Source: Muribaculaceae bacterium
GTDB taxonomy: Bacteria; Bacteroidota; Bacteroidia; Bacteroidales; Muribaculaceae
DNA: 19,389 nt
Reading direction: 5' to 3'
Assembly: GCA_029062725.1 (NCBI GenBank)
Contig: JAIDPP010000266.1
Coordinates: 1 to 19,389 of the forward strand
Shown: one piece after another, positions 3,361 to 19,389 of the stretch
Position numbering within the stretch: position 1 is the stretch's first letter
Layout of the letters: every line of letters starts with the position of its first letter
Notes under the pieces: model-generated
Seen by the model: only the letters and a program-made list of their open reading frames with translations
What the model was told of the DNA's origin: nothing
The model's database searches: none
Made by a program: the position numbers and the translations under genes

Positions 3361-3366
3361 ACTATT

Positions 3367-4053: not shown

Positions 4054-4066
4054 ATCCCCTCGTAAC

Positions 4067-4618
4067 ATGCAGAAGACCCTGAATCCAGTGATCAGAAAGA
4101 AGATACGCGACGCCGTGGAACGGAGCCGCCTCGAAGGGCGCCCGCTGGCGGTCCTTTTCGTCTGCCTCGGCAACATCTGCCGCTCCCCTGCCGCCGACGG
4201 AATAATGCGCAAGCTCGCCGAAGAGGCCGGCATGAAGGAGAAGTTCCTTATCGATTCCTGCGGTTTCTACGGAGGCCACGCCGGCGACCTCCCCGACCGG
4301 CGTATGCGCACGGCCGCTTTGCATCGCGGATATCACCTCGACCACCGTTCCCGTACCATCCGGACAATAGATTTCGATAATTTCGACCTCATCTTCGGAA
4401 TGGACCAAGCAAATATCGACGACCTGCGCCGGGTCACCCCTACTTTGGAGGCGGAGGAAAAGATAATCCCTATGGCGGCGCTCGCCCTGAATCATCCCGA
4501 GGCCGATGTGGTTCCGGATCCTTATTGGTCGGGAGCCGACGGTTTCTATCTGGTCCTCGATCTTCTTGAGGATGCCTGCACCATTCTTCTTGATGAAGCT
4601 AAAGATTCAGGCCTATGA
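4067..4618 (+). CDS. Low-molecular-weight protein tyrosine phosphatase
   Basis: A 183-residue cytosolic enzyme started at the ATG at 4067, 13 bp after the regulator stop; the frame is open further upstream but overlaps the regulator. The P-loop VCLGNICRSP holds the CX5R signature with nucleophile Cys33 and Arg39, and DPYWSG supplies the general acid Asp151. It hydrolyses phosphotyrosine through a cysteinyl-phosphate intermediate. About 28 residues precede the first beta strand, more than in most family members, which begin within a few residues of the P-loop strand; this extension is charged and probably helical (IRKKIRDAVERSRLEG). Bacterial relatives often oppose tyrosine kinases that control polysaccharide export, but no such kinase lies in the window. 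The stop overlaps the next start (ATGA), implying translational coupling to the histidine acid phosphatase. Confidence 0.95.
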   Translation: MQKTLNPVIRKKIRDAVERSRLEGRPLAVLFVCLGNICRSPAADGIMRKLAEEAGMKEKFLIDSCGFYGGHAGDLPDRRMRTAALHRGYHLDHRSRTIRTIDFDNFDLIFGMDQANIDDLRRVTPTLEAEEKIIPMAALALNHPEADVVPDPYWSGADGFYLVLDLLEDACTILLDEAKDSGL

Positions 4619-5895
4619 GAAAGTTAGCTTTTACCCTTATCCTCCTTTTAGGATTCATCTCCGGCTCTGCGACCTTTACTCCCCTCCCCCCCGAACTCGA
4701 CGGATCCATGATGCCTTACGATTTCGAGGCGGAGGATTCCCTGCTGATTCCGGAGGGCTACACCCCTGTCCATATCAGTTACGTAGCGCGCCACGGAGCC
4801 CGTTACCTTTCGTCGCCAAAGAAGACCGAAAAGATTGAGCGTGCCCTTGAGAAGGGTGCCTCGGAAGGGATCCTTTCCGTTGAAGGGGAGAAATTCCTCG
4901 CGTTCCTGAAGGAGATCACGGCCGTTTCCAAAGGCCGCTGGGGACTTCTTTCGGAGGTAGGCATAGCCGAGCAGCGGCGGCTCGGTTCATTTATAGGAAA
5001 TTCATTCCCGGAACTGCTCAAGCGGGGAAAGGCCGTCTCGATCTCGACTTTCGTGCCGAGAGTGATAATGACCATGTATGAGTTCAATCATTCGTTGGAG
5101 ATTCCGAATCATCAGCTTGAACTTTTCACATCTTCGGGGCATCAGAACGACTCCCTTCTCTACTGCTTCGCCACTTTCAGGGATTACAGCGGTTTCCGGG
5201 AGTCGGGGGCATGGGTGAATATCTATGATTCATACGTCGGGACGCATGTCTCCCCCCTCCCTGCGGGGCGTCTTTTCAAACCGGGCACCGAGAATGATAC
5301 AAAGCGGCTGCTTGATCTGACTATGGAAATGTATGGCGTGCTGCAAGGAAACCGCGCCGCCTCCCTTCCGGCTCCCACCACCGAATGGTTTTCCGAGGAG
5401 GAATACCGGCAATGCTATCTGGCGTCGAATCTGAAGCATTACCTGCGCAACACCCCCAATCTTATCGACCCTTGGTGCGCACCTGCCACTTCAATGCTTT
5501 TAGAGCGTATTATTTCAGACGCCGACAAGGCGCTGGCCGACGGCGACACACCATTCAACGGCTATTTCGGCCATTGCGAAACGCTCCTGCCGCTGCTGGC
5601 AGTCATGAATATTCCGGGATGCTATCTGCGGACGTCGGATTATTCCTCGGTGGAGTCGCATTGGCGACTTCAGGAGATCTCTCCCCTGGGAGCTAACCTC
5701 CAGCTTATTTTCCTGCGTAAGGGAAACAGGGTCCGCACCGCCGCTACCGGGGAGGTCTCGGTGATGGTCCGGCTCAACGGACGCCATATCGCTCCCTATC
5801 CGGGGGCTCCGAAGATTGTGACATGGAAGGATCTTAAAGATTACTGGCTCCGACGCATAGCTTCGTTCTCTCGGCCGAAAGCGAAGATCCTGTAA
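4615..5895 (+). CDS. Secreted histidine acid phosphatase, MINPP/phytase-like
   Basis: A 426-residue protein of histidine phosphatase branch 2. Residues 1 to about 19 are a signal peptide (MRKLAFTLILLLGFISGSA). The catalytic RHGAR motif is at residues 59-63 with nucleophile His60, within SYVARHGARYLSSPKK as in multiple inositol polyphosphate phosphatases. The C-terminal proton-donor motif is HCE at residues 320-322 (YFGHCETLLPLL), where MINPP enzymes usually have HAE and classical acid phosphatases HD; Glu322 would be the donor. Likely substrates are inositol polyphosphates such as phytate, or other phosphomonoesters, in the periplasm or outer membrane vesicles, as known for Bacteroides MINPP (established for the family, inferred here). 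It is the last gene of the S24 regulator-phosphatase operon, overlapping the upstream stop by four bases. Confidence 0.9.
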   Translation: MRKLAFTLILLLGFISGSATFTPLPPELDGSMMPYDFEAEDSLLIPEGYTPVHISYVARHGARYLSSPKKTEKIERALEKGASEGILSVEGEKFLAFLKEITAVSKGRWGLLSEVGIAEQRRLGSFIGNSFPELLKRGKAVSISTFVPRVIMTMYEFNHSLEIPNHQLELFTSSGHQNDSLLYCFATFRDYSGFRESGAWVNIYDSYVGTHVSPLPAGRLFKPGTENDTKRLLDLTMEMYGVLQGNRAASLPAPTTEWFSEEEYRQCYLASNLKHYLRNTPNLIDPWCAPATSMLLERIISDADKALADGDTPFNGYFGHCETLLPLLAVMNIPGCYLRTSDYSSVESHWRLQEISPLGANLQLIFLRKGNRVRTAATGEVSVMVRLNGRHIAPYPGAPKIVTWKDLKDYWLRRIASFSRPKAKIL

Positions 5896-5902
5896 TCTTT
5901 TA

Positions 5903-5967
5903 CGGCAGCTGAAGCTGCCGACCCAATAATATGACGGCGTGTCAAAACTTTGAATTTTGACACGCCG
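5903..5967. terminator. Two hairpins between convergent operons
   Basis: CGGCAGC (5903-5909) pairs with GCTGCCG (5914-5920) around a TGAA loop, 8 bp after the phosphatase stop. Next, CGGCGTGTCAAAA (5935-5947) pairs perfectly with TTTTGACACGCCG (5955-5967) around a 7-nt loop. The second stem is symmetrical enough to stop transcripts from both sides, including the flippase mRNA that ends at 6017. Neither has a long T run, so they are called by structure and position. Confidence 0.6.
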
Positions 5968-6016
5968 CCTTACTTATGGATGGCGAGGGACCCGGCCGGA
6001 ATGACTCGGCCGGAAG

Positions 6017-7525
6017 CTATGACACACCTTTACGACGACGGCGATGTGGCTTCTCATTTATCACTACAGCTCCGCCATACAGGGCCAGAAGCAGAGTCTT
6101 GACCACGTATGCCACCCCGGTAGTGAAGAAACTGTCGGCAAGGATACCCGCGCCGTAAAGCACACCTGCGAAGAGTAGATATAGCCCCATCCTCTTCAGA
6201 TGATAATCGATAGGGTAATACTTACGTCCCAAGAAATAAGATACCACCATCACGGCGAAATAGCTTATCAGGGCTGCCCATGCGGAACCCATATAGCCTC
6301 CCGGAATACCGATTGCCTTGACAAGCCAGATATTGAAGACCAGCATCAACACGAAGCAGAGAAGCGACATGTACATACCCCATTGCGTCCGGTCGGTCAG
6401 CTTATACCAGAGTGAAAGATTGAAGAAAACTCCGAAGCAAAGCTCCGCCAACATAAGAACCGGCACCACATCCAGCCCCTCCCAATAGCCGGGAGATATG
6501 AAATGCTTCAGCAACGGAAGATAATACATCACTCCCAAATAGATGAAAAAACCGAAGATGACGAAAAACTTCATTGCGTCGCTGTAGGCCTGTTTCTTGC
6601 TTTCCCCCTCTCCTCTTGCCTGAGAAAAGATGAATGGCTCGTAGGCGTAGCGGAAAGCCTGGGTGAACATAACCATTACGATCGCTATCTTCATGTTGGC
6701 GGCGTAGATGCCGACCATCGTGTCGGCCGCGGCTCTCTCCCCCGGGAAGAGGTAGGGAATCACCATCTGCCCCATATTCTGGCTCATGATCCCCGCTATC
6801 CCCAGAATCAGAAGAGGCCAGCTGTAGCGCAGCATATTCTTCAGCAGCGACCCGTCAAACCGGTAGTCGCGGCCGATAAGCTCCGGAAGAAGCGCAAGAA
6901 GCACGCAGAGCGTCGAGAGGATGTTGGCCACAAATATCCAGCCGATTCCGAAAGAGGCGCCTCCTAAAGGCTCGTAGAACCATCTGACCGCGCCGGGCGC
7001 ATGCTTCATAATCGAAGGGCACGCGAGGAGGAAGAAGAGATTCAGTCCTATGTTGAGCCCGACGTTCATCAGTTTTATCCCGGCGAAGCGCCATGCCTTC
7101 TTCTTATAGCGCAGATAAGCGAAGGGAAGGTTGGTGAAAGCGTCGATGGCTACGGTCGTACCCAGTATCCAGACATAGGAGGGATGCGCCGGCACATGCA
7201 GCGCCGATGAGACCGGAGATAGGAACACGCTCAGCAAAGCGATAAAAAGAAGCGACGTGGCGCCCACGGAGATAAGCGAAGTCGTATATACCTTTTCAGG
7301 ATCCTCCTCCTTGTTGGCGAAACGGAAGAAGCCCGTCTCCATGCCGTAGTTGAGGATCACGAGCATCACGGCCGTGAAGCTGTATAGGAAACTGACAACG
7401 CCATATTCCTCGGCAACGAAGAGGTAAGTATATAGCGGCACGAGACACCAGTTGAGGAAGCGGCCTATGATGCTGCTCAGGCCATAGACGGCTGTCTCTT
7501 TTGCCAAAGATTTGATTCCTGCCAT
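6017..7525 (-). CDS. Oligosaccharide/polysaccharide flippase (Wzx-like, MOP superfamily)
   Basis: A 502-residue integral membrane protein with roughly 12-14 hydrophobic segments over its whole length. The N-terminus (MAGIKSLAKETAVYGLSSIIGRFLNWCLVPLYT...) is typical of the polysaccharide-biosynthesis/Wzx branch, with the GLSSIIGRFLNWCLVPLYT first helix and an LLYSFTAVMLVILNYGMETGFFRFANK-type second helix region. It ends in a basic cytosolic tail (RRRRKG). Such proteins flip lipid-linked glycan units from the inner to the outer leaflet of the inner membrane. The substrate cannot be deduced; no glycosyltransferases are in the window. The gene starts 48 bp after the stop of ruvB and probably shares its transcript. 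The ATG at 7525 is the only good start, giving a family-typical N-terminus. Confidence 0.92.
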   Translation of the reverse strand: MAGIKSLAKETAVYGLSSIIGRFLNWCLVPLYTYLFVAEEYGVVSFLYSFTAVMLVILNYGMETGFFRFANKEEDPEKVYTTSLISVGATSLLFIALLSVFLSPVSSALHVPAHPSYVWILGTTVAIDAFTNLPFAYLRYKKKAWRFAGIKLMNVGLNIGLNLFFLLACPSIMKHAPGAVRWFYEPLGGASFGIGWIFVANILSTLCVLLALLPELIGRDYRFDGSLLKNMLRYSWPLLILGIAGIMSQNMGQMVIPYLFPGERAAADTMVGIYAANMKIAIVMVMFTQAFRYAYEPFIFSQARGEGESKKQAYSDAMKFFVIFGFFIYLGVMYYLPLLKHFISPGYWEGLDVVPVLMLAELCFGVFFNLSLWYKLTDRTQWGMYMSLLCFVLMLVFNIWLVKAIGIPGGYMGSAWAALISYFAVMVVSYFLGRKYYPIDYHLKRMGLYLLFAGVLYGAGILADSFFTTGVAYVVKTLLLALYGGAVVINEKPHRRRRKGVS

Positions 7526-7573
7526 GATTTCGGGTGGTGAGTTCTGCCGGAGGGCTCCGACGGAGGTTATGGA

Positions 7574-8611
7574 TTATTCTTCATCGAAGAGGGAGGATTG
7601 GGTCGGTTTCTGAATCCGGCCGAGGTGGCGGTAGGCGAGCTCCGTGACCTCGCGCCCGCGGGGGGTGCGCTTCAGGAAACCCTCCTTTATCAGGAATGGC
7701 TCATAGACCTCCTCGATTGTGCCGGGATCCTCGCCGATTGCCGTGGCGATCGTGGAAAGACCTACCGGGCCTCCCTTGAATTTGTCGATGATCGTAAGGA
7801 GTATCCTGTGGTCGATCTCATCAAGACCGTAACGGTCGATGTTGAGGGCCTCGAGGGCATGACGTGCGATCTTGAGGTCGATCTTGCCGTCGCCTCTCAC
7901 CATTGCGAAGTCGCGCACGCGGCGGAGAAGCGCGTTGGCGATACGCGGCGTGCCGCGGCTGCGGAGCGCTATTTCAAGAGCCGCCTCCTCGTCGATGCCG
8001 ATACGCAGCAGACGTGCCGACCGCTTCACGATACCTTTCAGCGTCTCGTGGTCATAATACTCGAGATGGCAGTTGATGCCGAATCTGGCCCGCAACGGGG
8101 CCGTGAGCGCGCCGCTGCGTGTGGTGGCGCCGATAAGGGTGAAAGGAGCGAGGGTGAGCTGCACGCTTTTCGCCCCAGGCCCCTTGTCGAGGAGGATGTC
8201 GATGCGGAAATCCTCCATAGCCGAATAGAGGTATTCCTCCACTATGGGATGCAGACGGTGGATCTCGTCAATGAAAAGCACGTCATGGTCTTCGAGACTC
8301 ATGAGGATTCCCGCCAGATCGCCGGGCTTGTCGAGCACCGGACCCGAAGTGACTTTGAAACCGACTCCCAATTCGTTGGCCACGATATTGGAGAGTGTGG
8401 TCTTTCCAAGACCCGGAGGGCCATGCAGGAGCGTATGGTCGAGGGCCTCGCCGCGCAGACGCGCCGCCTGCACGAAGACCCGGAGATTATCGATAATCTT
8501 ATCCTGACCGCTGAAATCATCCAGTGTCAGCGGGCGCAGGGCTTTCTCGACATCCTTCTCGAATCCGTCAGGACGCTGTTGTCCTTCACGTATATCGTAT
8601 TCTTCTTGCAT
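7574..8611 (-). CDS. ruvB: Holliday junction branch migration ATPase RuvB
   Basis: A 345-residue AAA+ motor that drives Holliday junction branch migration with RuvA and hands over to RuvC. Visible elements are Walker A GPPGLGKT (residues 64-71, Lys70), the RuvB-specific beta hairpin region ([17 protein letters not shown]), Walker B VLFIDEIH (111-118, Asp115/Glu116), sensor 1 GATTRSG (161-167), the arginine finger in APLRARFG (Arg174), and the C-terminal winged helix ([21 protein letters not shown]... RTPRGREVT) that binds DNA. Length and order are normal and no key residue is missing. ruvA and ruvC are not in the window. A -7 promoter motif lies about 78 bp upstream, and the flippase follows directly. 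Confidence 0.98.
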
Positions 8612-8688
8612 TGTTTCGATGATGAATGTTTCCCGGATGAATTATGAGGGCTGTGTGTCCAAAGATTCCGGGGAGAGATTTAGAATGG

Positions 8689-8720
8689 CAAAGTTAATCA
8701 AATTCGGCGCAATCGGCAAT
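8689..8720 (-). promoter_or_regulatory. Predicted ruvB promoter
   Basis: On the minus strand TAACTTTG (8696-8689) is a perfect match to the Bacteroidota -7 consensus TAnnTTTG. Twenty bases upstream is ATTG (8720-8717), matching three of four bases of the -33 TTTG box. The predicted leader to the ruvB ATG is about 70 nt. Confidence 0.55.
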
Positions 8721-8729
8721 TATCCGGGC

Positions 8730-8766
8730 AAAAAAAACGGGAATCCGGCCTTACACGACCGGACCC
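8730..8766 (-). terminator. Intrinsic terminator of the accessory locus
   Basis: Read on the minus strand, a GC-rich hairpin (TCCGG at 8744-8748 pairing with CCGGA at 8759-8763, extended by GGG 8739-8741 with CCC 8764-8766 across a two-base bulge) is followed by an uninterrupted run of eight T (A8 on the plus strand, 8730-8737). This is a standard Rho-independent form and lies about 160 bp downstream of the last secreted-protein gene. Confidence 0.65.
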
Positions 8767-8924
8767 CGAAACATCAAGGTTACGAAAAGGTGATTTCTAT
8801 AATCATGACCCGCTATCACCCGGGTCACTCCCCCCCTTTTCTTCTCCTCACTTTAACTGAATCTTGTACTTAGTTTTCTATCTTAGCATGATAAGACTCC
8901 GACATTAGCTCCTATCGGGCGTCT

Positions 8925-9800
8925 TCACCTATATATACAATCCGGAGTGTTTTTTGGTTCAACAATTTGTATCCGAATCATCCCGATATATTTCTTCCCT
9001 CCCCGGATATAGACGCTCCCGGGGGTGGGATTCGATACACGACGGCCATGTAGGTCGAAAATTTCTTCGCCCGGGGTATTCGCCGAAATTTCTCCCACAC
9101 ATGCAAGCGAGGAAAGCAATTCCTCATTCTCATAGATTATATTTCCATCAGAATCCGAAACCCTCAATAGACTCTCCCAACGTTTGGTTAAACCGGAGGA
9201 GACATTAGCAAACTGTGGGAAAGGCAACAGACCCTGAATATTGCCCAACCCTTCTATATTTCTGTAGGGTTTATCCTCATTATAGTAATTCCCTTTTACA
9301 TAGAAATCCTGATATGAAAAGTTGTTACTTTTATAATCCATCTCGCCGGTCGAGACAATCTCTACATCAAAGAAGAAATAGGTATGGTCACACATATCAT
9401 CGAAGCCCGGATAAATTGATTTATCCCCTTTCTTCAGATTGAAGTCATAAAGGAGGATCTCATTCTCTGTTGTAGAATCCCCCTTCTCAGGATTCATCGG
9501 GTATGGAACACCCCCTTCAATTCCATCTCCACAATAAAGGAATACTTTATTATCCTCCTCTCTCATATAGGCGACGGGCGACGAGTCGCTGTTACGGAAG
9601 ACATTATATTCAATGCCGTTAAACTCATGCGTCCCATCAAAATGATAACCCTCCTGTACAAAGCCATAAGGCTCGCCGTAATTATTACCATGCTCATAAT
9701 AATCCCAAAATCGACCTTCGACTACGGTCCGGTTCTCAGCCGACTGTAAATCGCCAACTAAGAATATCAATATCATTAGAAACACTATTTTTTTCATCAT
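8925..9800 (-). CDS. Secreted Bacteroidales protein with short sorting-type tail, paralogue 1 (divergent, C-terminally extended)
   Basis: A 291-residue protein with a signal peptide (MMKKIVFLMILIFLVGDLQSA). It belongs to a widespread uncharacterised Bacteroidales family recognisable by a start like VVEGRFWDYY, a central ILLYDFNLKKGD motif, and an IEGLGNIQGLLPF-type strand; function unknown. Near the end it carries DLHGRRVSNPTPGSVYIRGG followed by KKYI, the same short tail as its three paralogues and similar to T9SS-type C-terminal segments. Unlike them it does not stop there: the frame continues about 20 residues (GMIRIQIVEPKNTPDCIYR). Its signal peptide and middle are its own. A -7 motif CAAAAGTA (reverse TACTTTTG, 9846-9853) lies upstream, as does a repeat/palindrome element. 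The terminator-like hairpin at 8730-8766 follows. Confidence 0.8.
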   Translation of the reverse strand: MMKKIVFLMILIFLVGDLQSAENRTVVEGRFWDYYEHGNNYGEPYGFVQEGYHFDGTHEFNGIEYNVFRNSDSSPVAYMREEDNKVFLYCGDGIEGGVPYPMNPEKGDSTTENEILLYDFNLKKGDKSIYPGFDDMCDHTYFFFDVEIVSTGEMDYKSNNFSYQDFYVKGNYYNEDKPYRNIEGLGNIQGLLPFPQFANVSSGLTKRWESLLRVSDSDGNIIYENEELLSSLACVGEISANTPGEEIFDLHGRRVSNPTPGSVYIRGGKKYIGMIRIQIVEPKNTPDCIYR

Positions 9801-9911
9801 AAATCTCTTTTTGGTAAAATGAAAATAGTCTCTTTACTCGATAGACAAAAGTATAGACCACAAATAAAGAAAATCCACTGAAATAATACGCTGAATGGAA
9901 GCATATCATAA

Positions 9912-10015
9912 GAATAATATTTATCAGCCGATTGTAGGATTGTTGTTTATCCGCTGATTATAGAAATACTGATTACCAGCCTATTGCATGAATACTATTT
10001 ATCAGCCTATTGTAG
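9912..10015. repeat. 26-bp direct repeat array, copy 1 (4 units)
   Basis: Four contiguous units of exactly 26 bp begin at 9912, 9938, 9964 and 9990. They share a core like TTATCAGCCTATTGTAG with several substitutions between units. The last five bases (TGTAG) form the left tip of the adjoining inverted-repeat element. Confidence 0.8.
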
Positions 10016-10089
10016 GGACGCACCACGGTGCGTCCGCGGTCAGAAGGAGAATATGACTCATCCCGGACGCTCCGTGGAGCGTCCCTACA
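10011..10089. repeat. Inverted-repeat element with twin palindromes, copy 1
   Basis: The 79-bp element is bounded by TGTAGGGACGC (10011-10021) and its complement GCGTCCCTACA (10079-10089), an 11-bp perfect terminal inverted repeat. Just inside each end is a palindrome with 9-bp arms and a 2-base centre: GGACGCACCACGGTGCGTCC (10016-10035) and GGACGCTCCGTGGAGCGTCC (10065-10084). No coding capacity. It resembles REP- or MITE-type non-autonomous repeats; it may also serve as a hairpin after the paralogue 2 stop codon. Confidence 0.75.
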
Positions 10090-10131
10090 TTCAGTCCGAT
10101 TCATTATGGCTTCGATAAATATACCTCCTCA

Positions 10132-11157
10132 TTATTTCCAGATATACTTCTTCCCGCCTCTGATATATACACTCCCGGGGGTGGGATTCGATACACGACG
10201 CCCATGTAGGTCATAGAGAGGCAGGTTGGTATCCGAGGGCAACTTTGAAACGATACCATTCTCTATTCCGGCATCCTTTATATATTTCGGATCAAGATAA
10301 AGATTCTCCCCATCCTTATCAACTACTTTATAGAGAACCGGAACCCCCGGTAAATCAAACATACTGGAAATATCCGGTATCGATAATGCTGCCGGACAGA
10401 TAAAGAACCCATACCATGCTCTCATTGCAGGAACATAACTTTCAGGCTCACCGGAATATGATCCTATACCCTCCGCTATTCTCATTTCCCCCCAGCACCA
10501 TTTAACACCGTCTCTCCTTATCTGTTTTAATTCATAAACTTCAACCTCGTTTTCGGTCTCAATTCCGGTAGGAAGATTGAGCTTGTTTTTCCATGAAACC
10601 CATAACGGTCCGGCCGGCGTAAAAATATCGTAAACGGGATCCTTTTCAAAATCAATATTCATTCCGGTCCAAGGCCATTCGTAGGAATCATCTTCCGAAT
10701 AATTGAAATCATATAGCAGAAATTCCGTCTGATGTTCCGGATTCCAGGTAGGATCGACATCCCACCAATCTCTTGTCCACAAAACATCACCATACCAATA
10801 TCCTAAAAAGTATGATAAGATATACTGCTCGTTTGTCGGTTTATCTCCTATTGTCTCTGACAATTCAAGATTAGGACGGATATATACCCTACTCTCTTCC
10901 TCCTTGAGATGACACAACGGCACATCCAAGACAGGTCGCTGTAGGGAGTCGAGTGCATAACAAGGAGTCCAACCATCTACAGGATCCGTTAGAGTTAAAC
11001 CTAATATTACTGTGTCATTCCCCTTATTATAGGCGATATGGCTCCTATACCACCAAGTCCGTCCCGGCTCCACTAACTTGGAATATGCCGATTCTGCCTG
11101 CGAGATGCCTCCCGATAGAATAAGTGTCATCAAAAGTATAAGTATTCTCGTTTTCAT
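10132..11157 (-). CDS. Secreted Bacteroidales protein with short sorting-type tail, paralogue 2
   Basis: A 341-residue protein started at the ATG at 11157; an upstream in-frame start at 11205 adds 16 residues that spoil the signal peptide. Residues 1 to about 22 form the signal peptide (MKTRILILLMTLILSGGISQ). The first 37 residues are encoded by DNA identical to paralogues 3 and 4. The middle (about residues 38-290) is distinct, though it keeps family landmarks: CYALDSL, an LCHLKEEE strand, FLLYDFNYSEDDSYEWPW and MRIAEGIGSYSG. The last 46 residues again match the neighbours closely, ending DLHGRRVSNPTPGSVYIRGG then KKYIWK. Role unknown; probably an exported or surface protein. It follows a spacer containing the 26-bp repeats and a weak -7-like motif (minus-strand TAATTTG at 11195-11189). 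Confidence 0.82.
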   Translation of the reverse strand: MKTRILILLMTLILSGGISQAESAYSKLVEPGRTWWYRSHIAYNKGNDTVILGLTLTDPVDGWTPCYALDSLQRPVLDVPLCHLKEEESRVYIRPNLELSETIGDKPTNEQYILSYFLGYWYGDVLWTRDWWDVDPTWNPEHQTEFLLYDFNYSEDDSYEWPWTGMNIDFEKDPVYDIFTPAGPLWVSWKNKLNLPTGIETENEVEVYELKQIRRDGVKWCWGEMRIAEGIGSYSGEPESYVPAMRAWYGFFICPAALSIPDISSMFDLPGVPVLYKVVDKDGENLYLDPKYIKDAGIENGIVSKLPSDTNLPLYDLHGRRVSNPTPGSVYIRGGKKYIWK

Positions 11158-11224
11158 ATTTTTTAGTTTTAAAATCTCTTCTATTCGGCAAATTATCCAA
11201 CCCAATAGCCTGAAACTAATACTA

Positions 11225-11328
11225 GACCACTGATTCCGAACCGATGGTAGGAATAATGATTACCAGTCGATTGTAGGATCACTGTTTACCACTTTATTAC
11301 ATAAATACTTATTATCAGCCTATTGTAG
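11225..11328. repeat. 26-bp direct repeat array, copy 2 (4 units)
   Basis: Four contiguous 26-bp units start at 11225, 11251, 11277 and 11303. The phase and junction to the palindromic element are as in copy 1, though individual units differ from those at 9912-10015, so the array is conserved in layout but not in exact sequence. Confidence 0.78.
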
Positions 11329-11405
11329 GGACGCACCACGGTGCGTCCGCAGTCAGAAAGGGTAAACTCTGATACGCCCCGGACGCTCCGTGGAGCGTAC
11401 CTACA
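11324..11405. repeat. Inverted-repeat element with twin palindromes, copy 2
   Basis: An 82-bp element with the same tip TGTAGGGACGC and a right end GCGTACCTACA, one mismatch from a perfect inverted repeat. The left palindrome (11329-11348) is identical to copy 1; the right one (11381-11400) has one arm mismatch. The interior between palindromes differs from copy 1 by several bases and three extra bases. Confidence 0.75.
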
Positions 11406-11447
11406 TTCAGTCCGATTCATTATGGCTTCGATGAATATTCCTACTCA

Positions 11448-12497
11448 TTACCTCACGATATATTTCTTCCCTCCCCTGATATATACACTCCCGGGGATAG
11501 GATTCGATACACGGCACCCATGTAGGTCATAGAGAGGCAGGTTGGTATCCGAGGGAAACTCTGAAACGATACCATTCTCTATTCCGGAATTTTTTAGAAA
11601 TTCGGGATCAATGTAAAGGCACGTGCCATCAGAATCTATCACCGAATGAAGAACCGGGATTTCTGGGCTTCTAAGTCCTGATACTGCCACCATACATATT
11701 GACATAGGCGCTATGAAAAAGCCACTCCAGGTTATCATATCCTCCACATACGATGCCACAATGTTCCATGATCCATTACGCGTTATCCCGAGTCCCTCCT
11801 GAATCTTGATATTTCCGGTATAACTCCATTCTCCTGATGACCATGATTTCTCATACTGTTTAAGAGTGTATGTCTTGACCGTTTTCTTCTCTGAAAGTCC
11901 TGTATGAACCGTCTCTTCTTGAATAGCCATTATCTTAGGAGCACCCTTTAAACATTCATTTTGTTCCCAATAGGGAGAGAAATCAGTAGATACTCCCGAC
12001 CACGGCCAATCATAACAATCTCCCACATCATAATTGAAGTCATAAAGAAGGAATTGTGTAAGGCCCTCCGGATTCCACGTAATATGAGTATCCTCTCCAT
12101 CCCAGATGGTAAACCTATAATAATCTCCATACCAATATCCTAAGAAAAGCGAGAGTATGAACTGTTCATTAGTCCGGTCTTGGTAATCCGGTACAGGAAG
12201 GTGAAGATTCGGCCGTATCTCTACTCTTCTGTTCTCCTCCCTGAGGTGACACAACGGCACATCCACCACTTTTTGATTCAGAGAATCCAACGCATAGCAT
12301 GGGCTCCACCCTTCGGAATCGGGACGGTCAATGGTCAGACCCAAGATCACCTTCTCACTTCCACCCTCCGCAGACATCCAGCTCCAATACCACCAAGTCC
12401 GTCCCGGCTCCACTAACTTGGAATATGCCGATTCTGCCTGCGAGATGCCTCCCGATAGAATAAGTGTCATCAAAAGTATAAGTATTCTCGTTTTCAT
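11448..12497 (-). CDS. Secreted Bacteroidales protein with short sorting-type tail, paralogue 3
   Basis: A 349-residue protein started at the ATG at 12497 (signal peptide as in paralogue 2). It is identical in amino-acid sequence to paralogue 4. The middle section differs from paralogue 2 but aligns at CYALDSL, an LCHLREEN strand, FLLYDFNYDVGDCYDWPW and IKIQEGLGI. The tail is DLHGCRVSNPIPGSVYIRGG then KKYIVR, with Arg-to-Cys and Thr-to-Ile changes compared with paralogues 1 and 2. Unlike paralogue 4 it follows a spacer with repeats and palindromes, with a weak -7-like motif (minus-strand TAATTTG at 12535-12529), so it may be expressed separately from the protease gene. Function unknown. Confidence 0.82.
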   Translation of the reverse strand: MKTRILILLMTLILSGGISQAESAYSKLVEPGRTWWYWSWMSAEGGSEKVILGLTIDRPDSEGWSPCYALDSLNQKVVDVPLCHLREENRRVEIRPNLHLPVPDYQDRTNEQFILSLFLGYWYGDYYRFTIWDGEDTHITWNPEGLTQFLLYDFNYDVGDCYDWPWSGVSTDFSPYWEQNECLKGAPKIMAIQEETVHTGLSEKKTVKTYTLKQYEKSWSSGEWSYTGNIKIQEGLGITRNGSWNIVASYVEDMITWSGFFIAPMSICMVAVSGLRSPEIPVLHSVIDSDGTCLYIDPEFLKNSGIENGIVSEFPSDTNLPLYDLHGCRVSNPIPGSVYIRGGKKYIVR

Positions 12498-12564
12498 ATT
12501 TTTTAGTTTTAAAATCTCTTCTATTCGGCAAATTATCCAACCCAATAGCCTGAAACTAATACTA

Positions 12565-12668
12565 GACCACTGATTCCGAACCGATGGTAGGAATAATGAT
12601 TACCAGTCGATTGTAGGATCACTGTTTACCACTTTATTACATAAATACTTATTATCAGCCTATTGTAG
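12565..12668. repeat. 26-bp direct repeat array, copy 3 (4 units)
   Basis: Identical to copy 2 because it lies within the tandem duplication; units start at 12565, 12591, 12617 and 12643. Confidence 0.78.
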
Positions 12669-12745
12669 GGACGCACCACGGTGCGTCCGCAGTCAGAAAG
12701 GGTAAACTCTGATACGCCCCGGACGCTCCGTGGAGCGTACCTACA
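12664..12745. repeat. Inverted-repeat element with twin palindromes, copy 3
   Basis: Identical to copy 2 (offset 1340 bp), with palindromes at 12669-12688 and 12721-12740 and the same single mismatch in the right end. Confidence 0.75.
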
Positions 12746-12787
12746 TTCAGTCCGATTCATTATGGCTTCGATGAATATTCCTACTCA

Positions 12788-13837
12788 TTACCTCACGATA
12801 TATTTCTTCCCTCCCCTGATATATACACTCCCGGGGATAGGATTCGATACACGGCACCCATGTAGGTCATAGAGAGGCAGGTTGGTATCCGAGGGAAACT
12901 CTGAAACGATACCATTCTCTATTCCGGAATTTTTTAGAAATTCGGGATCAATGTAAAGGCACGTGCCATCAGAATCTATCACCGAATGAAGAACCGGGAT
13001 TTCTGGGCTTCTAAGTCCTGATACTGCCACCATACATATTGACATAGGCGCTATGAAAAAGCCACTCCAGGTTATCATATCCTCCACATACGATGCCACA
13101 ATGTTCCATGATCCATTACGCGTTATCCCGAGTCCCTCCTGAATCTTGATATTTCCGGTATAACTCCATTCTCCTGATGACCATGATTTCTCATACTGTT
13201 TAAGAGTGTATGTCTTGACCGTTTTCTTCTCTGAAAGTCCTGTATGAACCGTCTCTTCTTGAATAGCCATTATCTTAGGAGCACCCTTTAAACATTCATT
13301 TTGTTCCCAATAGGGAGAGAAATCAGTAGATACTCCCGACCACGGCCAATCATAACAATCTCCCACATCATAATTGAAGTCATAAAGAAGGAATTGTGTA
13401 AGGCCCTCCGGATTCCACGTAATATGAGTATCCTCTCCATCCCAGATGGTAAACCTATAATAATCTCCATACCAATATCCTAAGAAAAGCGAGAGTATGA
13501 ACTGTTCATTAGTCCGGTCTTGGTAATCCGGTACAGGAAGGTGAAGATTCGGCCGTATCTCTACTCTTCTGTTCTCCTCCCTGAGGTGACACAACGGCAC
13601 ATCCACCACTTTTTGATTCAGAGAATCCAACGCATAGCATGGGCTCCACCCTTCGGAATCGGGACGGTCAATGGTCAGACCCAAGATCACCTTCTCACTT
13701 CCACCCTCCGCAGACATCCAGCTCCAATACCACCAAGTCCGTCCCGGCTCCACTAACTTGGAATATGCCGATTCTGCCTGCGAGATGCCTCCCGAAAGAA
13801 TAAGTGTCATCAAAAGTATAAGTATTCTCGTTTTCAT
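12788..13837 (-). CDS. Secreted Bacteroidales protein with short sorting-type tail, paralogue 4 (duplicate of paralogue 3)
   Basis: A 349-residue protein identical to paralogue 3. Its ATG (13837-13835) lies one base after the TGA of the C25 peptidase gene (13841-13839), and the peptidase 3' end supplies a strong Shine-Dalgarno-like AAGGAGAG about 5 bases before the ATG. It is therefore very probably translated from the peptidase mRNA, whereas its twin sits behind a repeat-containing spacer. Since the duplicated block ends exactly at this start codon, this copy is likely the original position and paralogue 3 the newer one, created by unequal recombination through the shared 111-bp 5' end (inference). 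Exported by signal peptide; function unknown, possibly a partner or substrate of the protease. Confidence 0.83.
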   Translation of the reverse strand: MKTRILILLMTLILSGGISQAESAYSKLVEPGRTWWYWSWMSAEGGSEKVILGLTIDRPDSEGWSPCYALDSLNQKVVDVPLCHLREENRRVEIRPNLHLPVPDYQDRTNEQFILSLFLGYWYGDYYRFTIWDGEDTHITWNPEGLTQFLLYDFNYDVGDCYDWPWSGVSTDFSPYWEQNECLKGAPKIMAIQEETVHTGLSEKKTVKTYTLKQYEKSWSSGEWSYTGNIKIQEGLGITRNGSWNIVASYVEDMITWSGFFIAPMSICMVAVSGLRSPEIPVLHSVIDSDGTCLYIDPEFLKNSGIENGIVSEFPSDTNLPLYDLHGCRVSNPIPGSVYIRGGKKYIVR

Positions 13838-13838
13838 T

Positions 13839-16253
13839 TCATCTCTCCTTTATGATTGTCAATTTGGTTCCCTTGGAAATTGTGCTCCCCTTTTCAATTG
13901 AGACACTGCTGTGGGTCTCTATTTCAAGATGCCCCTTATTGGTGATGCTGCAATCACTCATCGATACCGAACGGTGAGGCTTTATCTTTAGTTTTGAGCC
14001 TTCATTCAATTCCAGTTTACCTCCGACAGTCACCTTATCAAGAGCCTCGATTGTAACCTCCTTATTCGCGCTAATCGAAACAGATATTCCACCTTTTGAA
14101 GAGTCTCCTCCAAATCTTGTCTTACCCATGAACCAATAATTATTATCATTTACGGTTAATCCTGATATCAGAGTCGGATGCAGAAAAGGCAGCATGTCAG
14201 AACGGAAATTCAGCATTGTGGAGTTTCTTTGCTCTCCAACATTAGAGTAACCACTTATCTTTCCAATTCCAGCCATTGTGTTAGAGGAAGCAAAGGAATT
14301 CATAGCATACCAAACCTGTGATGTTGAAGATATTGATTCAGGCTTAAATTTACCATTGACATCACTCTTATAAGGCTGATTTATCCATAAGGGGACAAGA
14401 GGATCGCCGTTTAGGCAAAAGGTAGTTATCAAGTATTTATTATTCGGCTTACTTAGTGACAACTCACTTAATCCAGTATTTAGTATTTCTGCAGAATAGC
14501 CCACCTGAATACCTGATTCTCTTCTACTAATGCAATCTTGAATTATTACCTCATTCAGCCAAGAACTCTCATCTATCAACCCAGAACCCGTATTACCCAA
14601 GAAAGCAATCCCTCCATAATCCTTCCCTAATATGAAAGATTGGGCAAAGTTGTAGCTTCCCCTATTATAGCCTAATTCAGCCAATAAACAGGACATTGAT
14701 ACCGTCCAACAAGGATAATTCTTATTATTCCAATTATCCAACCCATTATTATTTTCAGGTTGTAACCACCCACGATGACTATCCAAAGCATTGACGCCAT
14801 ACGTAACTTCATCATCTTCTTTATAATATGTTCCTATGCCTGAATAATGACCGTGCGTCCTCCAATCAACAAATCCCCATAAACCTGAATTTAAACTTAT
14901 AATTGCCTGAGATCCATAGTAAGGTCCATTAAGGGCATCTGAATCTACTTTTAGATTTTTAAAATTAGTTACATACGATTCCTTGGAATAAGAGTCGTAC
15001 CTTTTTTTCATTCGAGAATCATAGCCTAAGAGTACATAAGCATCGTCAAGATATGAAAGATTCATATTGTTAGTATTAAACTCATACTGCAACATCTTGT
15101 TAATGTAATTATCTATTTCCTCATAGGTACTGCATGTAATCCTTCCTACATTCAAATCATAACCGAAATCATTAAGCTCTTGTGAATATGGATACCTTCC
15201 CGTTGGATTGGTCCATTTAGCAGTCAAATTCCTAAAATAGAAATCACTTATGTAATCCTCATGTTCACGCATCCATCTTCCCGGCAGTTTTTCATACGGA
15301 CCGGCGAGCAGCACATACTCTGTTCCTAAAGAGGAGTAGGCATAACGGAGAAAGGCTCGGATTTTTCCGGCTTCATCATTATATCCCGACTCCACATCGC
15401 CGGCGGCAAAACGGCTGTCGGCTAATATATCCTCCACGCAGAATATCCTCGTGGAGAACCCGCGCATACGTCGGAGAGCCGCAAGACGTTCAAGAGAACC
15501 GGCCAAAGCCTTGGTGGTGATAATCGCAAAGGTGGCTCTCTCACTTTGGCTGACAACCGCCGCCATCGGGCGCGAGCCTAACGCCGGCATGGCATTGGCC
15601 TCCACATCTTCGGGATTGACAACAGATTCCCGTGCGCGCGACATGGCCGACTCTTGAGTCTCGGCATAGCGTGGTATCAACAGCGTGCCGAAGGAAGAGG
15701 CGTCGTGTCTCCATGAAACTGCGACCTCTATCTCCGTAGCAAGCTCGACGGCGTTGGAAGCGACATTCCATACCACCGGGCAAAGACTGACGGATAGAGT
15801 CCGGTTAAATCCCCCGATTGTCGTGACTCCATCTATAGAGGCTGACACCTGTCGCCTTACTTGAGTCGCTTTGGTAATATCGAGATGCACGAAGTCTATC
15901 AATGCGGCATTGATCGAGGTCGGTACAGGATACTGGGCAGGCATCGGAAGCCCGCTTATGGGAAAAATCTCGCTTTCCTTTACCGCGGTGGTAATCGTGA
16001 AATCCACCGCGTCGTTGGGAACGGATATATTGATCCCTTCACAAGGTAGATCAGGCTCTCCCGGTTCTCCTGAATTTGGAAGATGTCCGAGTCCTATCTC
16101 TGTGTAGAGAGTACCCTCCTTTTCAAGTGAGACAAGCCGGAGATCTCCTGCCGAATAATGGAAAGTATGCCGGTAGGAATCGGCTCCTTCCGCCTTTCCG
16201 GCAAACAGCATCAGAAAGACTATGATGATCGTGGTATATATACTTTTGGTCAT
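13839..16253 (-). CDS. Secreted C25 (gingipain-family) cysteine peptidase
   Basis: An 804-residue protein. Residues 1 to about 23 are a signal peptide. The N-terminal region holds a C25 propeptide-like segment with LPNSGEPGEPDLP (58-70). The catalytic region starts near FAIITT (242-247) and includes EAGKIRAFLRYAY, YVLLAGPYEKLPG and DLNVGRITCST. His468 in WRTHGHY and Cys522 in WTVSMSCLLAELG sit in the expected order, with YGGIAFLGNTGSG (546-558) and the family-closing CLNGDPLVPLW (613-623). The C-terminal 80 residues are repeated short beta strands (EVTIEALDKVTVGGKLELNEG...) rather than a T9SS sorting domain. At 804 residues it is too short and lacks the features to be PorU. Base composition changes sharply near 15280: the 5' part runs about 55-57% GC in sampled lines, the 3' part about 23-37%, suggesting a mosaic gene. 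Confidence 0.85.
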   Translation of the reverse strand: MTKSIYTTIIIVFLMLFAGKAEGADSYRHTFHYSAGDLRLVSLEKEGTLYTEIGLGHLPNSGEPGEPDLPCEGINISVPNDAVDFTITTAVKESEIFPISGLPMPAQYPVPTSINAALIDFVHLDITKATQVRRQVSASIDGVTTIGGFNRTLSVSLCPVVWNVASNAVELATEIEVAVSWRHDASSFGTLLIPRYAETQESAMSRARESVVNPEDVEANAMPALGSRPMAAVVSQSERATFAIITTKALAGSLERLAALRRMRGFSTRIFCVEDILADSRFAAGDVESGYNDEAGKIRAFLRYAYSSLGTEYVLLAGPYEKLPGRWMREHEDYISDFYFRNLTAKWTNPTGRYPYSQELNDFGYDLNVGRITCSTYEEIDNYINKMLQYEFNTNNMNLSYLDDAYVLLGYDSRMKKRYDSYSKESYVTNFKNLKVDSDALNGPYYGSQAIISLNSGLWGFVDWRTHGHYSGIGTYYKEDDEVTYGVNALDSHRGWLQPENNNGLDNWNNKNYPCWTVSMSCLLAELGYNRGSYNFAQSFILGKDYGGIAFLGNTGSGLIDESSWLNEVIIQDCISRRESGIQVGYSAEILNTGLSELSLSKPNNKYLITTFCLNGDPLVPLWINQPYKSDVNGKFKPESISSTSQVWYAMNSFASSNTMAGIGKISGYSNVGEQRNSTMLNFRSDMLPFLHPTLISGLTVNDNNYWFMGKTRFGGDSSKGGISVSISANKEVTIEALDKVTVGGKLELNEGSKLKIKPHRSVSMSDCSITNKGHLEIETHSSVSIEKGSTISKGTKLTIIKER

Positions 16254-16342
16254 AAACAGTAGGAATTAAAGCAGATGTATGATTACTAAAAATTTCATTG
16301 AATTGTCCCCATTACGTATGGGAAACACTTTTCAGTAACTGT

Positions 16343-17458
16343 TTACTCCGTCAGAATCATTCGTTTAGTATCTGCCTCGTTACCGTCCACGATAAGGGAA
16401 TAGAGATAGATTCCGGGCTGAAGGGTATTGGCCGATATGGTTACCGCCACTTCTCCGCGGTCGGAGACGGGAAGTCGGTTCTGCTGACGCCCGTTTAGGT
16501 CGTAGATACAGATGAAGGCCTCGCGGATACTTTCGGGAATATGGCAGCGGATCTCGGTGGTGTCGCGGAAGGGATTGGGACGGTTCTGCATCAAAATGAC
16601 CGATTCCCCATACATCTCCTCTACCGTTGCCATACCCTTCACTTTGCGGTCGGCGCCTTGGAGCGCGGCTATTATCTTCTCCTGCTCTGCTACCGTAGCC
16701 TTCAGGTCTTTATACGCATCTACGAGCAGAGGGATGAATCCGGTATAATCTACCGACAGCATCCCCTCTTCATCCTCATATACGAGTTCGGGGAGAATCT
16801 CACGTACCTCCTGGGCGAGGAATCCGAAGGAGCGGCGTCCTGAATCTGCGGAAGCGGCAGATTTTTTTGTCGCCTCTTCGCCGGAAGAGAGATTGAGATT
16901 AAGATTATAGCTTACAGGAGTCAGCTCATCCAGGAGGGACCCCATATTCTCCATCGATTCGATATTGCTCTTATAGCGAGCGTCGGAAGAGGTCAGGAAA
17001 GCCGTGGCCTTTACATTTATATTAAAAGTAAAGACGGGATCGGCAGTAGTAATAATGGGAGGGGCATAGGAAAAGATCCGTCCGTCGGAAGAGTTATAGT
17101 AGATACCCCCCTTCCCTACCATATAAAGCGAGCCATATTTACGTGTGGGGCTTTCTGTGAACGACGCTTCCTGAAACATCACATCCCTTCTTCCGCCAAA
17201 AGCGATTGTACCTCCGGAAAGATTCTTGTTATTAGTACCTAAAATGGAGATTGTGGTTGTCGTATCATTTACCTGCGGTATCACTCCGGGATTAATTACG
17301 ACATGAGGACTGACAGAATTTGATGAAGTGGGAACGACCTGCGAATTAGCCGTCCAGTCGCCGGCCTGGATATGGCCGTTGGAGAGGACACGAAGCTGTG
17401 CATCGAGACCGAGGGAGAGGGCAAGTAGTCCGGAAAGAGATAGAATGAGTCTTTTCAT
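16343..17458 (-). CDS. Secreted S74 (endosialidase chaperone) protein with T9SS type A sorting domain
   Basis: A 371-residue protein in four parts. Residues 1-20 are a signal peptide. Residues about 21-150 are a low-similarity beta-rich passenger. Residues about 155-250 are an S74 intramolecular chaperone domain as in phage tail fibres: TSSDARYKSNI (Ser158/Asp159, Lys163, matching the SDxRxK autocleavage motif), then FGFLAQEVREILPELV and VDYTGFIPLLVDAYK, leading into a short coiled coil (DLKATVAEQEKIIAALQ). Residues about 287-371 are a canonical T9SS type A tail: LMQNRPNPFRDTTEI, ICIYDLNGR and LQPGIYLYSLIVDG...KRMILTE. It is expected to trimerise, and may cleave itself. It precedes the C25 peptidase by 89 bp on the same strand. 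Bacteroidota homologues with S74 plus sorting domains occur, but the passenger is not recognised. Confidence 0.88.
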   Translation of the reverse strand: MKRLILSLSGLLALSLGLDAQLRVLSNGHIQAGDWTANSQVVPTSSNSVSPHVVINPGVIPQVNDTTTTISILGTNNKNLSGGTIAFGGRRDVMFQEASFTESPTRKYGSLYMVGKGGIYYNSSDGRIFSYAPPIITTADPVFTFNINVKATAFLTSSDARYKSNIESMENMGSLLDELTPVSYNLNLNLSSGEEATKKSAASADSGRRSFGFLAQEVREILPELVYEDEEGMLSVDYTGFIPLLVDAYKDLKATVAEQEKIIAALQGADRKVKGMATVEEMYGESVILMQNRPNPFRDTTEIRCHIPESIREAFICIYDLNGRQQNRLPVSDRGEVAVTISANTLQPGIYLYSLIVDGNEADTKRMILTE

Positions 17459-17501
17459 GAGTCTTCAAAATTAAAGTTAATAATATGTGGCTTATTTCCA
17501 A

Positions 17502-17882
17502 TTAAAGTTCCAACATGCCATAGAATGTGGTACCTGTGTCAGCCGTACATTCAATCGTGCATTCACCTGTTAAGCCGGATATCTCCATCACAGGATTCTC
17601 AGAGGTAACGATATCCGCAAGATTCTCCTCCTCGTTATAGATTATCACGCTGACCGAAACAATTCCATCGGGCAAAGTAAATTCTATCTCGGAATCGGAG
17701 TAGGCACAGTGAATGAAAATCCTTGCAGGAGCATTAGGACGATTATGAGTGGTCTTGATAGGAGTAAGAATCACCTCCTTTGACTTAGTTGAGGTTTTAG
17801 GCCGATCCTTTGAATCAGCCGATGTAAACACCGGAAAGAGCAGGGTCAAGATAATGACCAGAAAAATTTGAATCGTTTTCAT
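17502..17882 (-). CDS. Small secreted DUF3244-like protein
   Basis: A 126-residue protein started at the ATG at 17882; an earlier start at 17939 would extend across the promoter motif and displace the signal peptide. Residues 1 to about 21 are a signal peptide (MKTIQIFLVIILTLLFPVFT). A Lys/Thr-rich linker follows, then an 80-residue beta-sandwich-like stretch (IFIHCAYSDSEIEFTLPDG, VSVSVIIYNEEENLADIVTS, GTTFYGMLEL). The strand pattern and the ending resemble the DUF3244 family of Bacteroidales, small secreted proteins of unknown role, some found near secreted cysteine proteases. An inhibitor or chaperone role for the C25 peptidase downstream is possible but unproven. It is the first gene after a near-consensus promoter and starts the run DUF3244-like, S74, C25, paralogue 4. 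Confidence 0.75.
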   Translation of the reverse strand: MKTIQIFLVIILTLLFPVFTSADSKDRPKTSTKSKEVILTPIKTTHNRPNAPARIFIHCAYSDSEIEFTLPDGIVSVSVIIYNEEENLADIVTSENPVMEISGLTGECTIECTADTGTTFYGMLEL

Positions 17883-17908
17883 GTTTAAATAATTTATTGG
17901 TTCGCCCA

Positions 17909-17940
17909 CAAAGTTAGTCAGATCTATAATAATCCACAAA
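17909..17940 (-). promoter_or_regulatory. Consensus Bacteroidota promoter of the protease locus
   Basis: On the minus strand TTTG (17940-17937), a spacer of exactly 20 bp, then TAACTTTG (17916-17909). Both boxes are perfect matches to the TTTG-N19to21-TAnnTTTG consensus of the primary sigma factor in Bacteroidota. The leader to the ATG at 17882 is only about 20 nt. This suggests transcription of the DUF3244-like, S74 and C25 genes starts here. Confidence 0.75.
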
Positions 17941-18081
17941 TATCAGGCGCTTTTTCATTTGTTTCTTTAAGATCATAATCCATTGGTTATCAGGAGAAGA
18001 CTTCTTACTAATTTGTCTTTTTTTATTACTCCCTTTCATAGAAACAAATTTTTCCATTTCATCATCCTTCTTAGCTCCTAC

Positions 18082-19389
18082 CTACCTCATAGCTTCTATG
18101 TATCGTTCAAACCGATCTTCACCTTTGCACCTAATTTTATCTTTTATACGTCGTTTACGATTATAGACGGCCTCAACCTTATCCTCTTTAAGAAACAGGG
18201 CTATTGTCGGGGCGCTCCAGCCCATTACTGAAAAAAGAAATAATCGGTAATCCACCTCCTTTAATCCGGGAAAATCTTTCTTAAAATCACTGATGATATT
18301 ATCCATGCTTTCATCTAAATCACTTTCAAGTACCCTTATTCTCTCACTCCTACTGGAAAACTGTTCAATCATGGCAGTCATTGAGTCTGCTATTCTTCTC
18401 CTGAATGCTTTTGTATCCTTATTAGTTATGAATATCTGGCTTATTTCCTCAATTATATTATTTCGGGAAGAAAATAAAAGTTTTCTAAGAGCAACTGTCT
18501 TGGAATCCTTTTTAGCTATTATATCCTCTAACTCCTGCGCAGCAGCTACCCTACGGTCTATATCCCTCCTATGTTTTCGTCGTATTTCAATGATAATCAC
18601 CGTGAAAAGTAATATTACCAGAATTAAAATAAGTCCGGACAACCATGTTAAAAGTCTCAAATTTTTAATTTTGAGTCTTTTTTCCCTATTCTGAATCTCA
18701 TAACTCTCATTCATGGCAGTTGCAAGTGCCTCGTTCATTGATGCGCGTAGAATTTCATTTTCCATTGAATGAATTGTCTCCCATTCAACTAAAGCCTCCT
18801 CGTAGTTTCCACGTTCCTTAAATAAATCAGCCTTTAACTTCCGTTTCATCGGACTATCCGAAGATTCCAACCGCCCGAGCAACTCTTCTGCTTCCCGTAT
18901 TCGACCTTCTGCTAATAACGTAGAACCATAATACAGGGAATCAATCTCATCTCCATATCCAGATCCTAAGACAGTTTCAAAACCTTTAAGTGCTTTATCA
19001 TATTTACTCTCACGGAAATAACAGACAGATTGTAACTGATCGGCAAGATAATTTAAGTAAGAGTCCTGCATTTCACGAGCTTTCTCCTTCAACTTCCCAC
19101 ATATTATATTAGCCATACTATCCTGACCGTCTGAAGCGTATGCCCTTGCCAAATCAAACATAGCATATCTCGCATAAGGCTCTCTTCCACTCTTATTTAT
19201 TAGATTATATTCCATTTTAGCATAATTGAGTTCGTCTGCCGAATCAAAGGTTTCATGAAAAATATCCGAAATTCCACGACACGCCATCCCCTCCCAGAAT
19301 AAAGAATCACACTCCGATGCAACCTCCTGAGCCTTCTTAAAATAAATCATTGCCTTCGAATATTTTTTTTCTAAATAATACGAACGGGC
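18082..19389 (-). CDS. TPR-containing, membrane-anchored regulator with C-terminal helix-turn-helix, partial (5' end outside window)
   Basis: The frame is open through the right edge; 435 residues are visible, and the first ATG in the window (19350) is internal, since the 13 codons before it (ARSYYLEKKYSKA) continue a TPR helix. The N-terminal part consists of tetratricopeptide-type helical hairpins (for example ESKYDKALKGFETVLG, RGNYEEALVEWETI). Counting from the Met at 19350, a transmembrane helix lies at about 233-256, then a coiled coil (258-350) and a C-terminal segment at about 360-410 (LKEVDYRLFLFSVMGWSAPTIALFLKED... NRKRRIKDKI) like LuxR/sigma-4-type helix-turn-helix domains. This layout matches Bacteroidota membrane regulators sometimes labelled DUF6377; sensing would be periplasmic and DNA binding cytosolic. 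It sits upstream of the protease locus in the same orientation and is the likely local regulator (inference). Confidence 0.8.
   Translation of the reverse strand, partial: ARSYYLEKKYSKAMIYFKKAQEVASECDSLFWEGMACRGISDIFHETFDSADELNYAKMEYNLINKSGREPYARYAMFDLARAYASDGQDSMANIICGKLKEKAREMQDSYLNYLADQLQSVCYFRESKYDKALKGFETVLGSGYGDEIDSLYYGSTLLAEGRIREAEELLGRLESSDSPMKRKLKADLFKERGNYEEALVEWETIHSMENEILRASMNEALATAMNESYEIQNREKRLKIKNLRLLTWLSGLILILVILLFTVIIIEIRRKHRRDIDRRVAAAQELEDIIAKKDSKTVALRKLLFSSRNNIIEEISQIFITNKDTKAFRRRIADSMTAMIEQFSSRSERIRVLESDLDESMDNIISDFKKDFPGLKEVDYRLFLFSVMGWSAPTIALFLKEDKVEAVYNRKRRIKDKIRCKGEDRFERYIEAMR

Follow-up and report, generated by a model that had tools for sequence, protein, structure and literature searches.

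Why should three successive gaps between neighboring genes carry the same elaborate spacer? The question is raised by contig JAIDPP010000266.1 of the Muribaculaceae bacterium assembly GCA_029062725.1, a stretch of 19,389 nucleotides that we call the window and that is the whole of contig C186 of this genome (G000, a metagenome-assembled genome [MAG] of 1.83 Mb that is 79.6% complete). Four related open reading frames (ORFs) lie on its minus strand at 8925-13837, and in each of the three gaps between them the plus strand reads as four 26-bp units followed by an inverted pair of 20-bp palindromes (Table 1). A first-pass annotation had described four such units and a 79- to 82-bp palindrome pair in all three spacers, a description that we confirm, and had suggested a mobile repeat that targets the 26-bp array or repeated insertion at the same site. 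We conclude, with a probability of about 0.92 for the explanation as a whole, that the twin palindromes are a REPIN, i.e., a doublet of repetitive extragenic palindromes (REPs) of the GTAG type, also classed as a bacterial interspersed mosaic element (BIME), and that its threefold repetition is a matter of gene duplication.

The anatomy of the spacers carries the first part of this reading. GTAG sits directly at the foot of each short palindrome, as in GTAG-type REPs, and the two REPs stand inverted, feet outward, with a short spacer between them, at several loci, as in REPINs or head-to-head dimers. The 11-bp terminal repeats reported earlier are perfect in copy 1 and have one mismatch in copies 2 and 3; the second palindrome of the latter two is GGACGCTCCGTGGAGCGTAC, one base off the version ending in TCC that had been given for it. 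REPIN copy 1 is predicted to fold at -53.3 kcal/mol (minus strand; z = -7.8), with 0 of 200 shuffles folding as well, and copies 2 and 3 at -51.9 kcal/mol (z = -7.2). Each REPIN lies 42 bases beyond the stop codon of its gene, and in both old copies of the spacer (copy 1 and the form from which copies 2 and 3 derive) the final GTAG of the last 26-bp unit is at the same time the first four bases of the REP. A target-site duplication next to the terminal inverted repeats, as in a miniature inverted-repeat transposable element (MITE) of a DDE transposon, was looked for at copy 1 and not seen, the two flanks sharing at most ATT. An Rfam search gave chance-level matches only, and a tRNA search gave none.

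The second part is the presence of a REP-associated tyrosine transposase (RAYT). The first-pass annotation had asked whether a transposase of the Y1/RAYT type is encoded, and one is: the genome has a single match to Y1_Tnp (PF01797; 28.6 bits versus a cutoff of 23), in an ORF of 192 codons on contig C352 (L017:1577-2155, G000:C352). Its first codon falls within a REP, and the true start may be later. The motifs MPNHIH (HUH), WQPRYH and YIDNN can be read in the product, the catalytic tyrosine being assigned by motif, and its sole NCBIfam match is REP_Tyr_transpos (NF047646). REPs with the stem CATCCCGATG lie around the gene, at C352:7508, 7560, and 8197, and a further REP, of the window's CACC/GGTG type, lies inside it after the HUH motif (C352:7923-7946) and leaves the frame intact. 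The REPs on C352 had raised the suspicion that the conserved part of the REP head is longer, but this was rejected when 53 REP heads compared by eye proved to share only the foot. Relatives of this RAYT at an E value of ≤1e-10 were found in 30 of the 111 genomes of the genus, its own included. At these loci (L178 to L207), a frame with the HUH motif is present in 28 of 30, and in 15 of the 28 a hairpin tagged with GTAG or CTAC lies in frame after the motif, often directly behind it, a count made from a printout; two of the 15 (L190 and L192) have stops within the stretch matched in the search for RAYT relatives, and at L189 and L196 the hairpin is found only near the end of the frame.

Third, the REPs are dispersed. 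With up to 2 mismatches allowed, the pattern GGACGCNCCNNGGNGCGTCC occurs at 19 places, of which 6 are in the window and 13 elsewhere in the genome (control, 0), and further REP pairs lie at C55:1345-1442 and C226:613-713. A query that joined array and REPIN (bases 8 to 111 being the array and the REPIN starting at base 107; at most 5 stretches scored per genome) matched 15 of 150 genomes including the genome itself, and so 14 of 149 relatives; among the matches listed outside the window, none starts before base 90 and none contains the array. A wider REP pattern matched in 41 of 150 genomes, with up to 84 matches in one of them (G037). At least three matches were found in 18 genomes, again including the genome itself, and 23 of the 41 had one or two, a number that the reversed control also yields (up to 4 in one genome). 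REP pairs are found in relatives as well, for example at G041:C98, G014:C11, and G070:C15. The ruvB of this genome is 82 to 85% identical to that of six Muribaculaceae MAGs, and the genome most likely belongs to this family of the Bacteroidales. Judged by ruvB, two other MAGs are nearest, with identities of 93 and 94%, and these differ in their REPs; one, G171 (the same genome as G014), is rich in REPs and the other, G170, has none at an E value of ≤0.01, so the REPs are patchily distributed. In G041, homologues of the window genes at 16343-17458 and 17502-17939 have a REPIN between them, and the 43-bp spacer between these genes in the window holds none. At two loci of G014 (L086 and L109), several REPs share some 20 to 25 bp of flank before the foot, so that the repeated sequence extends past the REP at these loci. 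At L002:840-900 (G000:C54), a decayed REP could be aligned with a better-kept REP in the orthologous spacer of G014 (L419), a pair that we read, from the alignment, as an old insertion followed by decay.

Several observations weigh against this reading. The NCBIfam match of the RAYT, at 62.2 bits, falls under the family's cutoff of 80, and no solved structure matches the protein by sequence. Among the ten genomes with at least 10 REP matches (G000, G009, G014, G015, G017, G020, G037, G041, G059, and G080), only five have a close relative of the RAYT (E ≤ 1e-10); nine have Y1_Tnp and all ten have one or the other, but Y1_Tnp is common anyway (101 of 150 genomes). Finally, no empty site was found for the window REPIN, the gene island around it being absent from the nearest relative.

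How, then, did one REPIN come to occupy three gaps? Spacers 2 and 3 show no difference over the aligned stretch and stem from one duplication with a period of 1,340 bp. Spacer 1 can be aligned with spacer 2 from the array to the end of the gene. The arrays agree at 74 of 104 bases, the left REPs at 24 of 24, and the right REPs at 23 of 24; the linker between the REPs agrees at 20 of 29 bases, three gap columns aside, the stretch from the REPIN to the stop codon at 40 of 43 columns, and the last 169 bases of the gene at 147. Beyond the array, identity is down at 51%, and gaps take up 36 of 111 columns. Judged by these alignments, the spacer design arose once, with spacers 2 and 3 being a recent tandem duplication and spacer 1 an older copy, and the comparison shows that the REPIN has spread locally by gene duplication. 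The design that had been noted as kept across the copies is thus seen twice, not three times, because copies 2 and 3 are identical duplicates and not independent. The threefold repetition is that of the genes and does not reflect repeated insertion.

We propose the following sequence of events. A REPIN, non-autonomous and made of two GTAG REPs head to head, would presumably be moved by the genome's RAYT via single-stranded hairpins, in the manner of the IS200/IS605 transposases. In an ancestral gene, one REPIN would have come to lie next to a 26-bp array, 42 bases beyond the stop codon. A duplication of this gene with its 3′ flank gave rise to copy 1 on the one hand and to the precursor of copies 2 and 3 on the other, and the recent duplication gave the two identical copies. 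That the genome's own RAYT moved the window REPIN, and the order in which array and REPIN arrived, are steps that we infer. The array most likely had its four units before the gene and its flank were duplicated, because each of the old copies has CAT as the last letters of its third unit.

The 26-bp array itself looks like a local feature and not a part of the REPIN, within the reach of our searches. Tandem Repeats Finder (TRF) reported 4.0 copies with a score of 98 at 9912-10016, and in 1,000 dinucleotide shuffles of the spacer 1 region any array scoring at least 40 appeared in 4 (best score, 50). For copies 2 and 3 it reported only 1.9 copies (score, 65), but four units are in register there, the match being 0.60 at an offset of 26 and 0.65 at 52. 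Across the genome, the array core was found at 8 places when up to 2 mismatches were allowed, and 6 of these lie in the window; at 3 mismatches the count was 42 places versus 26 in the control. Among the matches listed outside the window for an array query against the 111 genomes of the genus, none is longer than 44 query bases and no second array is seen, this genome included; the best of those listed covers 27 bases (E = 1.2e-4), at most 8 stretches being scored per genome. TRF found no 26-bp array at three of the eight paralogue loci that were fetched from relatives. The possibility that the REPIN sits inside a longer array was rejected, as its far flank does not resemble the array (P = 0.59).

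One alternative, which we regard as possible though doubtful, is that the array grew at the REP foot after the REPIN had arrived, by slippage or by nicking at the hairpin. That the array is one-sided and ends at the foot speaks for it, but it is not the units closest to the REP that resemble each other most: the fourth unit is identical to the first at 24 of 26 positions, to the third at 20, and to the second at 18. The tandem arrays that lie beside REPs elsewhere bear on the same point. In a first tally, arrays were found at 10 of 40 REP loci versus 17 of 156 controls (P = 0.036), with a REP in the unit in 3 of the 10. The REPs in the counts that follow are those of the loci fetched by then and not all REPs of those genomes. 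Among 218 distinct REPs there were 56 upstream arrays, of which 18 end within -4 to +5 of the foot, followed by 6, 5, and 3 in successive 10-base bins; 11 of the 18 have whole or partial REP letters in their units, however, and may be plain tandem duplications of REPs. An array lies within 60 bp upstream of 20 of 216 REPs, the window's own excluded, and of 13 of 569 control points, which are intergenic and neither length matched nor hand curated. After the removal by hand of five REPs whose array units hold REP letters (L163, L203 twice, L356, and L106 at 2663), arrays without REP letters remain at 15 of 211 REPs versus 13 of 569 control points, an excess of about threefold (P = 0.004), and with L106 counted once the figure is 13 of 209 (P = 0.012).

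We take these counts as suggestive only of a link between REP feet and short tandem arrays in the fetched loci. A preferred period of 26 bp was tested for and rejected; an array touches 27 of 214 REPs, with periods from 7 to 82, and the period is 26 at two loci. At L360, an array of 9-bp units, most of which hold GTAG, reaches the REP foot, and at L187:1319-1425 (G039:C29), a 4.1-copy array of 26-bp units, each half a REP, has a REP at its end, immediately ahead of the RAYT gene. Short arrays (units of 7, 9, 14, 21 bp and others) were also seen on the GTAG side of REPs at L343, L358, L360, L083, L090, L390, L392, L087, L106, and L176, and at L163 and L203 the tandem units, of 41 and 65 bp, each hold a whole REP. 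That the link is mechanical in this genus, with arrays growing through the action of the REP hairpin or of a RAYT that nicks at GTAG, or with the RAYT targeting arrays that end in GTAG, seems to us improbable; if it were true, the window array and the half-REP array of G039 would be two snapshots of one process.

A second alternative is that the spacer has been kept as a functional RNA element at the 3′ end, for mRNA protection or attenuation, its REP origin being secondary. If transcribed, the pair would give a very stable hairpin after each gene (-52 to -53 kcal/mol, unequaled in the shuffles), an effect on mRNA is possible, and its position behind the stop codons is constant. Moreover, between the two old copies the REP arms have changed at 1 of 48 positions and the rest of the spacer at 42 of 172 (P = 1.5e-4), or at 12 of 72 when the array is left out (P = 0.014). 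This better preservation is consistent with selection on the hairpin, with gene conversion, or with the two together; gene conversion could yield the same pattern, and the stretch from REPIN to stop codon is also well kept. No terminator-like site was found in spacer 1, the sole spacer scanned, and the scan of the eight loci of relatives (in G030, G041, and G058) found no REP between the paralogues, a single weak candidate with a 6-bp stem at L115 not being counted; the one REP pair that it found is that of G041 described above. On this balance we think a role as a kept RNA element rather unlikely as the primary explanation.

Very improbable, finally, is a composite element of array and REPIN, or a REPIN that inserts specifically into 26-bp arrays: the shared GTAG in both old copies, the arrays at L360 and L187, and the upstream excess of arrays speak for it, but the L187 units are half REPs unlike those of the window, no match listed to another REPIN reaches the array, the array is not continued past the REPIN, and the window holds 6 of the 8 places of its core. 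The first-pass annotation was right about a REP-like mobile repeat as far as the palindromes go, which form a dispersed GTAG-type doublet in a genome with a RAYT gene flanked by REPs; to its question whether palindrome and 26-bp unit always occur together the answer is no, and both outcomes that it had named in advance as fatal to the composite were found, namely, REPs without the array and a design multiplied by duplication of the gene family.

Table 1. Coordinates in the window of the spacer elements and of the genes between which they lie
Feature	Position	Strand	Remarks
26-bp array, spacer 1, four units	9912..10015	+	TRF score 98
REPIN copy 1 (head-to-head pair of GTAG REPs)	10011..10089		79 bp
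Left REP of copy 1	10012..10035	+	
Right REP of copy 1	10065..10088	-	
26-bp array, spacer 2, four units in register	11225..11328	+	TRF 1.9 copies
REPIN copy 2	11324..11405		82 bp
26-bp array, spacer 3	12565..12668	+	Identical to spacer 2
REPIN copy 3	12664..12745		82 bp; identical to copy 2
Paralogue p0	8925..9800	-	Resembles the other paralogues at the C terminus; no Pfam or NCBIfam match
Paralogue p1	10132..11205	-	No Pfam or NCBIfam match
Paralogue p2	11448..12545	-	No Pfam or NCBIfam match
Paralogue p3	12788..13837	-	99% identical to p2

Six full-length relatives of the paralogues, at 37 to 42% identity, were found in G030, G041, and G058; G014, a genome that is 65% complete, gave no match when searched in full, and a search of genome contigs confirmed no relative. 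In nine relatives, the 1 kb beside ruvB, searched with p0 as the only paralogue, contains no p0 homologue and no GTAGGGACG. Within the 18-kb ruvB region of the nearest relative, G014 (L418), window DNA was matched only at 1057-8848, a stretch that encodes none of the four paralogues. Synteny with this relative thus stops at 8848 and does not extend into 8849-19389. Together with a gene at 13839-16253 that has a C25 peptidase domain, the paralogues look, from this comparison, like a lineage-specific island. We also noted that the noncoding stretch at 8755-8848, between ruvB and p0, is 88.7% identical in G014, compared with 77% for the flanking ruvB DNA; it matches no Rfam family.

The window REPINs resemble several systems described elsewhere. 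GTAG-type REPs have a GTAG foot and a short hairpin, and head-to-head dimers with differing stems are among their marks (Di Nocera et al. 2013, PMC3733652). The window elements share with these dimers the foot, the hairpin, the inverted pairing at 20 to 100 bp, the heterodimeric state, and the location near gene 3′ ends; the associations listed in this source do not include a 26-bp array at the foot, and our comparison with its 24 GTAG families is one of descriptions only. The same source describes REP dimers set in other repeats, so that a dimer abutting another repeat has parallels, but there the partner recurs at many dimers, whereas here the array was found at one gene family only. In Pseudomonas fluorescens, REPINs are REP doublets whose loss from Pseudomonas genomes was seen in sequencing reads (Bertels and Rainey 2011, PMC3116915). 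As described there, the doublet is dispersed, a RAYT is in the genome, and tandem copies with flanking DNA are known; unlike there, copies are few here, as the count of palindromes outside the window indicates. RAYTs and IS200/IS605 transposases have palindrome-bordered genes and a similar catalytic domain in common (PMC8266576).

The RAYT of this genome is closest in description to subclass 2.4 of the TnpA-REP proteins. Quentin et al. 2018 (PMC6006769) give in-frame REP insertions between the HUH and Y motifs as the mark of this subclass, which abounds in Cyanobacteria and Bacteroidetes. The NHIH, WQ, and YIxNN motifs, a length of about 194 amino acids, REPs both around the gene and in frame inside it, and an origin in the Bacteroidetes are shared. 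The tabulated motif of the subclass is YIxNNP and ours is YIDNNV, and the likeness is one of motifs and REP placement. REPs in frame inside RAYT genes are, in any case, already described for this subclass in that work. Our limited search of the literature found nothing on REPs in Muribaculaceae, which says little about the wider literature.

A striking spacer is thereby placed in a known kind of element, and its threefold repetition is traced to gene duplication. The analysis adds a Muribaculaceae-like genome with REPINs and with a RAYT that carries its own REP. The spread of REPs has been called poorly understood (PMC8266576); should complete genomes confirm that arrays are in excess at REP feet, this would offer a testable trace of how REPs spread.

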